A stretch of DNA of 64,000 bases from Prorocentrum cordatum (Eukaryota; Sar; Dinophyceae; Prorocentrales; Prorocentraceae). The notes under the pieces were generated by a model, which made no database searches, was not told the origin of the DNA, and worked only from the letters and a program-made list of their open reading frames with translations. A program made the translations under genes and the position numbers. Positions 31,396 through 60,983 of this stretch are shown piece by piece. The stretch covers positions 212,921 to 276,920 of the forward strand of contig CAUYUJ010005047.1 of NCBI GenBank assembly GCA_963575745.1. The letters are read 5' to 3'. Position 1 is the stretch's first letter. Every line of letters begins with the position of its first letter.

Positions 31396-32560
31396 TACTC
31401 ACAAGGATGGTACTCGCAACTGCCGACGGTTGGGTCTTTCGCCAGGCTGCTTTTGGACGTGGCCGATCTGTTGGGCGTTGCCGATCTGGTGGACGTGGCC
31501 GTTCTGGCTCAAGTGCTCGTGCGATTTGGCGGATGTGGCCGATCTGGGTGTGCATTGCGCAGCCTGTTTGGAAGCACTGGCTGGGCCAGTTCTCTCTCGC
31601 CTCGGAAGTCGGTCCCCGAGCCCCAGGGGTTTTCCATTGGGCCAGCGCCTCATCCTGAGAAGTGCATTGACGGCCCTGGTAGAGGACCCCAGGGGCCCCA
31701 AAACGGCTAAACATGTCGCGGACATCTTTCTTGGACCCGCGTCGTGCATGCCACTTCTCACAGGACATCGTCGCCAGGCTAGATTTCAGAATGGACAAAC
31801 ATGTGTATGTGTATGTGTGCGTGCTCGCGGTCGAAGGGAAGCCGTCGACATGTTCAGATTGGGGGAGCGAGACAGCCACCCCGAGCTGTGCCAGAAGTTG
31901 ACGCCTACCAGCGTTCTCTCTGAGCACGTGCACCAGTCGATCCTTTTCTCATTTGAAGCACGGTAAGTCGGGCACTTGGGGCCGAATTATTATCCACGAT
32001 CGACAGCGGTTCCGTCCGTCATGGGAGCGGCGGTTTTCCGCAAGGTATACCATGCACGAGTACAATGTGCAGGACGAGTCGACGCTCTTTATGGTACTCT
32101 CTTCCGCTTGTGGGCTTTCTCAGTCAAGCGCCGTTGGCATTGGTTCTTCTCATATCTCTGGGGTTCGTCCCTGTCTGCCGCTTCCTGCCAGTTCGGTTGC
32201 ATCAGCGCTTCGCCTGCCAGGGGGATGGCGAAGAGCCAGAATGTCGCCTTATTATCCAATCCTCGACTTCACTTCAACACGCGGGAGCCTCCAGGGAGCT
32301 GCTTTGGGATAGTCCTGGGCCCTGCTGTGGCCGCCACCAGTTGGTCTCTTGGCCGGTCCTGGACCATCTCAGGACCATCGGGGTGGATCGGGGACCCGTG
32401 AGACCCGAGTAAGCCGGAGCTCGGGTTCGCCGAAGTTTTGTGGACGAGCGCGTCCAGGAGTTTGACGGTCCGGTTTTCGTGGGCTGTCTGCAGCGGGAGC
32501 CCGCGTCAAAGTTCGGATTGGAGTCCGTTATTTTCATAAGGCCCCCGTCCTCGTCGCGCC
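31396..32560. other. Unique stretch, ambiguous open frames
   Basis: Open frames of up to 195 codons overlap on + and - strands. One + frame (32,065-32,412) includes a hydrophobic stretch (FLSQAPLALVLLISLGFVPV). After a TAA the same frame reads DERVQEFDGPVFVGCLQREP. A weak array of GTGGCCGATCTG units is at 31,455-31,555. I cannot decide whether any of this is coding. Confidence 0.35.
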
Positions 32561-57175: not shown

Positions 57176-57378
57176 TACGACACCTGGGTTGAGTTCACAG
57201 GACCGGGCCTGGGAGTGATGTCACACGCTCAGGGGAGGCGAAAAGGTACCCCAGAACAGACGTACCCTGGAGAGGGGGGCCTCAGAGCACACCTCGGAAC
57301 GCCCAAAGGCTTGATTTTGATGCACAACGTCTCTCGAGCCGCTTACCGCGGCGACAACTCTCTGGGGCAACGTCGCGC

Positions 57379-57399
57379 TCCGTAGCCATTTTGGCTCAA
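57379..57399 (+). other. Relic dinoflagellate spliced leader
   Basis: TCCGTAGCCATTTTGG then CTCAA matches 21 of the 22 bases of the dinoflagellate spliced leader (DCCGUAGCCAUUUUGGCUCAAG); only the last G is T. No GT donor follows, so it is not a spliced-leader RNA gene. It marks the 5' end of a reverse-transcribed mature mRNA. Confidence 0.85.
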
Positions 57400-57675
57400 T
57401 GCTTCGGCCAGGCGCAGCCGCGCTCCCGCCTGCGACCGCGTGCGAACCCTGCGCCTACGGGTCCACTCGACGCCTGGGGTGTCGGCGGACACCCCCGCTG
57501 GGGCTCACCTGGCTGCAGGGGCATCCTTCGACTTCTGAGCCCCGGCCCGTTTCCCGCACCCTGACCTGCAACCTCCTGCTCACGTGTGTGCTTGCCTGCC
57601 TCCTGTGGCAGCGGCCGCACTCCCAGAACGTGCTCGCTGCCGCTCCACCTGCCGCCCAAAGGCCTCTCCGGCCGA

Positions 57676-57768
57676 TGAGGAGGAGGAGGAGGAGGAGGAG
57701 GAGGAGGAGGAGGAGGAGGAGGAGGAGGAGGGGGAGCAGGAGGAGGAGGTGGAGGAGGTGGAGGAGGA
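57676..57768. repeat. (GGA)n tract inside the retrocopy
   Basis: GGA units, then GGAGCAGGAGG and GGAGGTGGAGG variants. Confidence 0.93.
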
Positions 57769-59892
57769 AGCATGTTGCAAAACAAATTCCAGATGTCTAG
57801 GACATGTGTTAAAGCTGTTTCAAACATTGGAAAACACGTTTGAAGCATTTCCAGGGCACTTTTGCGACATGTGAAACACATGTTTCATTCGATGATAGGA
57901 CTGTTAGGGTGTCCATTGTCGTGGCATCCACAACACCATTGGCACGGGCCTCCCGGTGGGGAGCAAGCGCGGCAGCATCGTCCGTGTCTCGATGTTCGCG
58001 GCGCCCAAGTTGGACCGCGAGAGGGTCCGGGGCCCATTTCTGGAGGAGAGGGGGGTTCGTTTCTGCGCAGGGGAGCATCGCACGGAGTCTAGCACCAGGA
58101 GTTTGACCCATGACGCCATCTGGCAGGAGGCGTTCCGAATGTCAGATGCATCTGCGCAGCAATGTGTTGCGCTCCTTACCAATGATAGTGGATCCTTACC
58201 TCTGGCTGCTGAGTTGAACAAGCAAGACAAGCGATCAATCGTTGTCTGACCCAAGTCGAATCCTAGGCAGGAATCGCTCTTCTCGCAGTCCGGGTTGCAG
58301 GTGGCCGTTGTTGATCGGTCCTTACCTGAGACTCGAATGAAAGCTTACCTGTTATCAGACGGACCTGCTGGAATCGATTGTTTGGACTCTCCAGAAACAG
58401 TTATGGTCGATAAGCAATGTATGGATTTGGTTTTCGCGTATGTCAAATCTCTTGGCTACCTCACCAAGACCGCGTCGACGTCCACGTCTGCTGAGATTGT
58501 GCCAGCTGTCGCGAAACTGTGGTACACTAACGGTCTGGGCATATTGGATTTGTACCCATCTTGGTATGCCGTGTGGAGTCTGCTGGATCTGATTGGCACG
58601 TCTAGAAAGGTCAAGAATGCCAACGAGCGTGGATGAGCATACGTGATGCCACTACGCAAGAGTGCAAGGATCTAGCCTCTCAGTCGAAGGGCGTCCCAAA
58701 TTGCCTCGGGAGGCGGACCCTTTGTCATGATTGACTCGCCCGGTTTGGTAGAACTATTTTTGAACCGATTGGGTTATCTGGATTCCAGTCTGAACAGGGA
58801 TATGGATGAGGCTTTGCTAGTGTTCATTCAGATGTCAATAAACAGTCTATGCTTGTCAAGCGTGGGGGTCTATGAAACGGTTGGCCCGCCAGGCATCGGC
58901 GAGTTGAAGGTTGCCATCCCGAGTGAAGCCGGACAGGGAACGTGTGCATGGTGTCGAATATTCAGTTGCAAAGAGGATGTTGCTATCCGCAGATGTATCA
59001 AAAGACGAGGTTTATGAAGCGTTGGCGAGATCTTGCGCGGACAACGTCTTGCCTGCAAGGAAAACCTACAACGGGTGTGTAAAGCTCTTTCAGTCGCGTG
59101 TCCTGAACGCCGATGACTCCTCTCTGAGGCAGTGACCTCGCCATGTTTGGTTTTCCGGCGCTGGCGGGTACCAGGAAGTTGTGGTGTTCGTTCTTGTCAT
59201 CGCCAGTTGTGCCACAGGACATGTGTTTCGTTTGTCCGCAAGCTGTGTCAGAGGACAGTCGGGGATACGCGATAGCGAACACGCCTCCGCCTCTCGAGGC
59301 AGCAGAGGCAGGAGAGGGAAGGTCTCGGCCTCGGGTTGGGGCTACCAGCCTGCCACGAGGGTAAACTACTTTTGAAACAACGTGCAGGCATACAGCATGA
59401 GTGCTGACAGAAACGAACCACGACCATGCCCATGAAGGTTAAACGCTCGACTTGAGAAGCAGCAGTTCCGACTGCGACAGGACTGGCAATACCGCTATTA
59501 CGATGGCGGTTCTACCCACCCGCTCGCGCGAGCGAGGAGAAGCGCAGCCATGCAGGGAGAGGCGACGACCATAGCCGCTGCGGCCCAGCATTCGACAGGA
59601 AAAAACAACAACAACAACCAAGCAAAAAAACCGGGGCCAACGTCGCCCCCTGGGGAGACGATTCGCCTCTTCCACCACACTTGGATCCAAAGCCGCGATC
59701 CCTCCGCGCAGGCGCTGTATGACTGGTCACGCCTGCGGTGTGGGAGAAGGGCCTCCGGCGCCCACGCGTCCTCGGGCGCCGTCGCTCGTGGGGCGAGGGT
59801 CGGCGAGGGTCACCGACCCTCGGAAAGCGAGGGCCCGAGCGGACGGCTCGTTGAGCCACCCCGTGTTCCAATTTCTCCCTTCGCCCCTCGTC

Positions 59893-60019: not shown

Positions 60020-60169
60020 TCGTCGTGCGCTGCTTCGTCCGTCCTCTTCTCCGTGGGGCACCGCAGGCGCGTCCAGGCCTCGTGCTCGAGACGCACCCTG
60101 TTCCGAGTTTGGGATCTCGGGATGTTCTGTGTTGTCGGTCGTTGGGCCGAGTCAACCTTGTTTGAAGAC

Positions 60170-60364
60170 TCGGGCCGGGCGAAAGGGGGGGATTGGGAAA
60201 GGGGGGGTTACGAAATTTGCTGCATGCAGCTGGTTTCGGCCCCACCGAGGGGCCCACTCCTCGATACATGGCCGCCTCCGGCGCCGGGAGGCGCCGGGAA
60301 AATCAGCTATGTGAGCTGATTCTCAAACCCCCCCTTTACTATCCCCCCCTTTCGCCCGACCCGA
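60170..60364 (+). mobile_element. Family F element, copy 4
   Basis: TCGGGCCGGGCGAAAGGGGG to CCTTTCGCCCGACCCGA, flanked by AAGAC (60,165-60,169 and 60,365-60,369). 195 bp. From 60,370 to 60,984 the DNA is unique with no gene recognised. Confidence 0.9.
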
Positions 60365-60983
60365 AAGACGCACATTATCGCATCGATCTGTGCTGACTGT
60401 GTTGCCAGTGTCTTCTATAAGTAGAGAGCAGTTGTCTCGCCGTACCACAGTCCCAGAGGACGCGAAAGAGGGGGCCCTGCGATCTGTTTCCACTCGTCCT
60501 CCTTCTTTCCTTTCCTCAGAAGTTGAGTTGTGAATGAGGTGTGGAATGACAGATTTCACGGCACGTCACATCCCCGATGCATCCGTCCATGGAGTGGCAT
60601 GTTCAGCATGGTGCAGGGGTGATAAATAGTCGTTGGGATGGCAGTGCTTTTGTGAGCGAAGGGGGGGAAGTGAAACGGTGATCCAATGGGAGGTGTTTTG
60701 ACAGCCCGGGACATGGGAGAGGGAGAGTTTCGATCTGGGATTGCGAAGTACGTAATTTTGAGATGCAGCGGTGCGCACGGCCTAACGTGGGACAACCGAA
60801 TTCTAGTCTGTTGGCTGGCAAATCGTCAATCGGGCTTCCCAAGACGCCATGGATTCATGGCGCTGTCTTCAAACAGGTGTTACCTTCCCATCCAGGTGCT
60901 TGCTGCAAATCCCTTCCCGTGCCAGCGAAATACTTTGTGTGTTGCGACCCCGATTGGCTCAACCGCAGCCCCGCTTCGCTTCC

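Follow-up and report, generated by a model that had tools for sequence, protein, structure and literature searches.

The 64,000-nucleotide stretch of Prorocentrum cordatum DNA analysed here (C5047:212921-276920; hereafter the window) carries, at 57379-59630, a copy of the dinoflagellate spliced leader (SL), a broken reading frame and an A-rich run, and the question that this locus raises is whether it is a gene transcribed in place or an mRNA rewritten into DNA and, if the latter, by which machinery. SL-tagged retrogenes of dinoflagellates were reportedly described by Slamovits and Keeling in 2008. In the available portion of a 2018 paper, such retrogenes are put at 22-23% of genes in two Symbiodinium genomes, and the retroelement mediating dinoflagellate retroposition is called unknown, with LTR elements favoured (PMC6050394); a 2025 paper, in its available portion, names retrotransposons as the mediator, retroviruses not being ruled out, and the term 'target site' is absent from its main text (PMC12014239). 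We assign a probability of roughly 0.88 to the reading of 57379-59630 as a processed pseudogene that derives from a trans-spliced NYN-family mRNA and was inserted by a LINE-type mechanism (target-primed reverse transcription, TPRT) with a 13-18 bp target-site duplication. This reading draws on the leader, the tail, the duplication, the end of homology at the tail, and the broken frame.

The leader copy, TCCGTAGCCATTTTGGCTCAAT, occupies 57379-57400 on the + strand and, as the earlier note had observed, agrees with the dinoflagellate SL at 21 of 22 bases, the single mismatch being a T in place of the last G. It is the sole match at three or fewer mismatches in the window, none occurs in 100 shuffles, and it stands, encoded in DNA, at the 5′ end of the gene copy. 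Alongside the window scan, SL copies were counted genome-wide in the assembly (4.13 Gb, 21,875 contigs): the exact 20-base SL core occurs 14,818 times (7494 + 7324), the window's copy being one of these, and a reversed control pattern 0 times, and the type of copy found in the window is neither rare nor unique in the assembly. A second, partial match lies at 31499-31513, where 13 of 15 bases agree with the 3′ portion of the leader, and is possibly an older relic; the two window matches together are expected 0.11 times per window.

Behind the leader, on the same strand, follow a 5′ part (57401-57942), where the 5′ UTR and first exon or exons would be expected and which contains a (GAG)n run at 57677-57768; a pseudogenised coding part of the NYN-domain family (57943-59135); a 3′ UTR (59136-59599); and an A-rich tail (59600-59630; 23 A of 31), interrupted by C and G. 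A single frame runs from 57908 and is broken by stops at 58247-58249, 58634-58636 and 58673-58675, with a fourth stop (59015) behind a clear frameshift, a net 20-base loss at 58944-58953 relative to the homologous locus on contig C9423 (L037). Given three in-frame stops and one clear frameshift, the copy is dead. The earlier note had claimed three in-frame stops, which stand, and at least two frameshifts, of which one is clear: the other difference, a 4-base indel at 59120-59123, probably arose through a loss in C9423 rather than a change in the window, because the C-terminus of the window copy resembles those of the relatives L038 and L040.

The piece 57908-58246 matches five other places in the genome, on contigs C9423, C16038, C19066, C21264 and C4936. 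The C9423 relative, which has an open frame of 410 aa, shows 73% amino-acid identity to this piece, and 57943-59599 aligns with it over 1.65 kb at about 90% (87.6% when gaps count, by BLAST, and 90.6% when aligned bases alone are compared; 83-98% per 120-base bin), the other four places being more distant matches to the piece. A Pfam scan of the relatives, which covered the C9423, C16038 and C21264 proteins of the five, places NYN (PF01936) above the cut-off in three: L037 at 9e-7 (29.9 versus 24.2 bits), L038 at 3.1e-7 (31.4 bits) and L040 at 1.2e-5 (26.2 bits). None of the window's own broken pieces reaches the cut-off of any Pfam family, and an NYN match is absent from them; their matches below cut-off are PNGase_F-II_N (0.031), PsbN (0.065) and, from the poly-glutamate frame, several of low complexity. 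Piece 58250-58636 gave no relative at E<=1 in a protein search, a weak one with candidates of similar length only, and one chance-level match in the PDB (E 0.94). In the NYN relatives at L037 1474-2706 and L038 1096-2718, DSVF and NADF, respectively, stand where L040 has DQDF. Differences between the window and L037 number 44, 49 and 31 at codon positions 1, 2 and 3 (of 391, 392 and 392 sites), so that the pair carries no sign of purifying selection; the same counts may also reflect a C9423 locus that is itself unconstrained.

The 3′ boundary of this homology is especially informative. The 3′ UTR aligns with L037 up to the A-run, with a 32-base gap at 59528 relative to L037, and homology stops between 59599 and 59603, the latter being the end of the local alignment. 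C9423 shares the first four A of the run and then continues TGCAATCGC; at the homologous place L037 has AAAATGCAATCGC. As C9423 has no A-run beyond these four A, the tail is untemplated. Homology that ends at the A-run is the strongest single argument for the putative mRNA origin, and it supports what the earlier note had proposed, namely a retroposed SL-bearing mRNA with leader, A-tail and duplication.

The 5′ part behaves differently from the rest of the body in comparison with C9423. Comparisons by blastn of 57401-57960 with L037 and L042, and of 57401-57945 with L043, which together represent C9423:1-15165, returned chance matches only, the upstream span of C9423 without a counterpart to 57401-57942 amounting to 13.3 kb, and a tblastn search with the L040 N-terminus found nothing credible in the 5′ part of the window copy. 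Because these 5′ 540 bp have no counterpart in C9423, what we infer about the direct parent is that C9423 may be its sister; alternatively, the first exon of C9423 may lie off the contig. In L038, a stretch ending LIDG about 240 bases before the NYN exon (tblastn, a weak match at E 0.019) suggests, with the caution due to such a match, an intron that splits LIDG/D in members of the NYN family. Also inside the 5′ part, 57802-57883 has 23-nt arms that are 74% complementary; this segment may have been inserted later, or it may be an intron that was retained. Beyond the copy, 60160-60370 shares a short element with L003 1612-1800 that has inverted G-rich/C-rich ends and, by eye, resembles a MITE; the L003 copy follows an SL at a distance of about 90 bases.

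Leader and A-run are flanked by a direct repeat of 13-14 bp, GGGGCAACGTCGC at 57364-57376 and GGGGCCAACGTCGC at 59633-59646, which bears out the flanking duplication described earlier. A diverged repeat end (CGTCGCGC / CGTCGCCC) may account for the two bases that separate repeat and SL, in which case the SL would stand exactly at the repeat edge; by eye, the repeat may extend to CTGGGGC-AACGTCGCGC / CCGGGGCCAACGTCGCCC, the left copy (57362-57378) then meeting SL base 1, and the right copy (59631-59648) the end of the A-run, without a gap. The duplication, which has decayed by one indel, is thus 13-14 bp or possibly 17-18 bp long and abuts both ends of the insert, within the roughly 7-20 bp of LINE-type insertions. 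Flanking repeats extending well beyond 14 bp had been named as a sign of segmental duplication, and the flank comparison in the window found no direct repeat longer than the 13-mer that links the two flanks.

A repeat of just 13-14 bp with one indel might have arisen by chance, the copy having been inserted without a target-site duplication. Similar 13-mers do arise by chance in the window (five with two or fewer mismatches against 2.95 expected, in itself not unusual), and, when the right-hand copy is free to follow any A-rich spot within 6.6 kb, of which there are 110, the score is reached by 45 of 2000 random 24-mers (about 2%). Against this, with the right site pinned behind the A-run, a fit as good as that of the true left flank is seen in 59 of 63,828 overlapping 24-mers of the window, or about 1 in 1000, and it is this independently set position that makes the repeat convincing; among free random 25-mer pairs, 53 of 19,696 align as well. 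The 13-mer occurs at one or fewer mismatches in 0 places among 251,660 + strand positions of the other fetched loci, and duplications recur at two other SL loci, L014 and L004. We therefore consider a chance repeat improbable and retain the target-site duplication.

To place the window copy among other genomic leaders, we sampled 30 SL loci, the first 30 of about 100 places listed, which lie on contigs C1-C3 only and are not a random sample. Of these, 21 immediately follow a (TCC)n/(GGA)n array whose purity in 18 bases is at least 0.72, compared with 4.0% of window positions, and 15 do so at a purity of at least 0.83, compared with 2.6%. Fifteen of the 21 array loci were followed 5.4-9.3 kb downstream, 12 chosen for their arrays and L015, L022 and L028 for stacked leaders, and L006, L007, L009, L013, L017, L019, L026, L027 and L031 were followed for at most 1.5 kb. 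With the exception of L022, all of the 15 (14/15) show LINE reverse transcriptase (RT)/endonuclease homology by tblastn; these are LINEs that begin with the SL, at about position 1500 of L008, L010, L012, L015, L016, L020, L021, L023, L024, L025, L028, L030, L034 and L035. The query proteins came from three of these, L010, L025 and L035, and L010 has a further copy in L023. RVT_1 was identified in all three query proteins, in one below cut-off, and Exo_endo_phos in two of the three: L044 carries RVT_1 (7.1e-16) and Exo_endo_phos (1.2e-6), L054 carries RVT_1 (5.2e-13) and Exo_endo_phos (3.5e-6), and L051 carries RVT_1 at 3.5e-4, below the curated cut-off. LINEs with both endonuclease and RT (L044, L054) are thus present in the same genome as the window copy. 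RT homology was found in one of nine array-less SL loci (L011); Fisher's p for the first 12 array loci versus these nine is 4e-5, a comparison that is not clean, as the 12 were picked for arrays and three of them are queries. Overall, at least 15 of the 30 sampled loci have RT homology, six that were followed have none (L014, L018, L022, L029, L032 and L033), and L013 has one weak RT match (E 1e-4).

Loci L010 and L023 are 5.6-kb copies that share about 92% identity over the span between the SL and ...GGTTACGTTCGC, have no A-tail and are bounded by (TCC)n at both ends in the same orientation. A same-orientation array also follows downstream at L020, L021 and L030, and none was seen at others within the stretch examined. 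One older, shortened leader stands behind the full one in the LINEs at L015 and L020, two do so at L028, and L009 and L022 (the latter without an RT match) also carry a stacked pair. From the 15-base unit of these stacks, we infer that the LINE RNA was trans-spliced again, in earlier rounds, at the AG inside the older leader, and the stack on L015, L020 and L028 is possibly a count of past rounds. An alternative view of the microsatellite SL loci, as repeats into which gene copies had been inserted, was dropped once the LINE domains were found.

To determine how often an SL copy keeps a duplication, the 24 bases before each SL were sought after a downstream A-rich stretch, with the upstream 24-mers of the other loci as control. 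Nine loci were tested: six of the 30 that were judged array-less by eye (L011, L014, L018, L029, L032 and L033), two that had been found via the window's own SL (L004 and L005), and the window itself; L017, L027 and L031, which have other or weaker repeats, were kept out. Own duplication scores were 8 at L011, 14 at L014, 17 at L018, 10 at L029, 8 at L032, 10 at L033, 13 at L004, 7 at L005 and 11 in the window, and none of the 72 swapped-flank scores exceeds 10, leaving four of the nine loci above the control maximum and five with no own duplication above it. The numbers of random 24-mers, of 2000, that reach a locus's own score are 45 for the window, 8 for L004, 20 for L014, 5 for L018, 62 for L029 and 172 for L033. 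The leader-tail-duplication signature is recurrent and, at the lengths examined, not general; the proposition that every non-microsatellite SL locus keeps a duplication is not supported, as five of the nine have none above control.

At L014 1482-2170, the SL (21/22) is followed by a short 5′ UTR, an intact ORF of 102 aa and an A-rich tail, and an 18-bp duplication matches at 16 of 18 positions with its left copy ending directly before SL base 1, which makes L014 a textbook copy with SL leader, tail and duplication. Its ORF matches Bac_DNA_binding (HU-like), a match that goes with the name HCc histone-like protein. The duplication of L004 has 19 matches in 23 columns and likewise ends directly before the SL, with a short A-run only, and at L005 a search without the A-tail requirement found nothing duplication-like. 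L018 was set aside as a duplication case, its high score coming, by eye, from the surrounding minisatellite: the SL copy at 1500 lies inside a minisatellite of about 21 bp, found on both sides of it and again 3.2 kb downstream.

Other origins for the window copy can be weighed against this body of evidence. Insertion after reverse transcription of the LTR-retrotransposon (Ty1/copia) type, mediated by integrase or repair, is unlikely, if the least so of the alternatives. The duplications, 13-18 bp with an adjoining A-tail here and 18 bp at L014, speak against it, integrase duplications typically being 4-6 bp, and a cDNA spanning the A-tail to SL base 1 fits TPRT. In its favour, the available portion of PMC6050394 prefers this route for dinoflagellates and, in that of PMC3942190, 14 of 14 retroelement clusters among Oxyrrhis ESTs match Ty1/copia. 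A functional gene transcribed in place, its leader resemblance being a coincidence or a promoter element, is still harder to sustain than a chance flanking repeat. SL relics have been proposed as promoters (PMC6050394, available portion), yet three in-frame stops and a frameshift break the frame, no 22-mer as close to the SL arose in 100 shuffles, and the homologue has no A-run beyond four A. The alternative raised in the earlier note, that the locus is the parent gene itself, is disfavoured because the leader is encoded in DNA, the tail is untemplated and the frame is broken.

The least probable origin of all is an endogenous RNA-virus element with a captured SL, comparable to those of dinoflagellate RNA viruses (dinoRNAVs). 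It was suspected from the body at 58210-59050, which has a G+C content of about 0.5 in higher surroundings, and from the dinoRNAV literature, in which 6 of the 26 RdRp elements of a Symbiodinium genome have an SL no more than 500 bp away (PMC10235124, in the portion available), and it was dropped once the relatives proved to be NYN-domain proteins. For 57943-59135 it is refuted by these homologues, which exceed the curated cut-off in three relatives. Neither RdRp nor capsid homology was found with Pfam or, for piece 58250-58636, the sole piece searched there, in IMG/VR, where this piece has no relative; among the Pfam families listed, which number 25 of 28 for the poly-glutamate frame of (GAG)n, the only viral name is Pox_Ag35, a match of that frame at E 0.001, below cut-off.

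A processed pseudogene inserted by TPRT would have formed in the following manner. A trans-spliced, polyadenylated mRNA of a gene family with an NYN domain (a PIN-like nuclease) would have been the starting template. Its whole length, A-tail to SL base 1, would have been reverse transcribed and inserted at a staggered break via target-primed reverse transcription of the non-LTR (LINE) type, which would generate the 13-18 bp target-site duplication. Later decay would account for three stops, one frameshift, one change in the SL and one indel in the duplication. The acting enzyme was presumably a LINE working in trans, as LINEs are present in the assembly. The LINE behind the A-tailed gene copies may differ from the microsatellite SL-LINEs, because the latter have no A-tail at the one 3′ end that is defined and their proteins have no match in the window. 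A broader proposal, which we hold tentatively and at somewhat less than even odds, is that genomic SL copies are chiefly the 5′ ends of a large class of LINEs whose RNA was captured by host trans-splicing and which insert into (TCC)n/(GGA)n microsatellites, with stacks of two or three leaders that count earlier rounds of trans-splicing and reinsertion, and that these or related LINEs, acting in trans on SL-bearing cellular mRNAs, made the dinoflagellate retrogenes, including the NYN and HU-like copies.

These observations bear on how SL copies in dinoflagellate DNA are interpreted. In titles and abstracts of the open-licence literature, we found, among the matches listed, neither a complete leader-tail-duplication copy nor SL-bearing LINEs in microsatellites, which does not establish their absence from print, and the available portions of PMC11453091, PMC3942190 and PMC7789003 yielded no further complete case. 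For dinoflagellate retrogenes, the LINE type is indicated by copies in which leader, tail and a duplication of 13-18 bp all survive, and 14,818 exact SL copies in one assembly open the question of machinery to a simple survey. With LINE RT downstream of at least 15 of 30 sampled SL copies, SL counts in DNA may overstate gene retroposition in such genomes. The value of the window copy lies in its preserved ends, which offer a testable answer on the machinery that rewrites mRNA and a lead to a class of leader-bearing LINEs.

Among known systems, the processed pseudogenes made in mammals by LINE-1-type elements are full-length cDNAs with a 3′ A-tail and a 7-20 bp duplication that are dead on arrival, and the window copy resembles them in these features. 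It differs in having a trans-spliced leader as its 5′ end and in its target, which is unlike the TTTT/AA of LINE-1, the duplication starting with C or G. The SL-LINEs described here share their location in microsatellites with the microsatellite-targeted non-LTR retrotransposons of PMC4640811; those elements, in the available portion of that paper, have a restriction-like endonuclease, whereas the SL-LINEs have Exo_endo_phos in two of three proteins scanned and start with the host SL. With the endogenous viral elements of dinoRNAVs, as far as the available portion of PMC10235124 describes them, the window copy has in common the proximity of an SL to RNA-derived sequence inserted into dinoflagellate DNA, and it differs in a body that belongs to the NYN-domain family rather than being RdRp or capsid. 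The closest likeness in kind is to SL-tagged dinoflagellate retrogenes, in which, according to the available portions of PMC6050394 and PMC12014239, a DNA-encoded SL likewise precedes the gene copy and is taken to identify it as a retroposed mRNA; compared with these, the window copy also keeps its A-tail and its target-site duplication, and the end of its homology is defined against a genomic relative.
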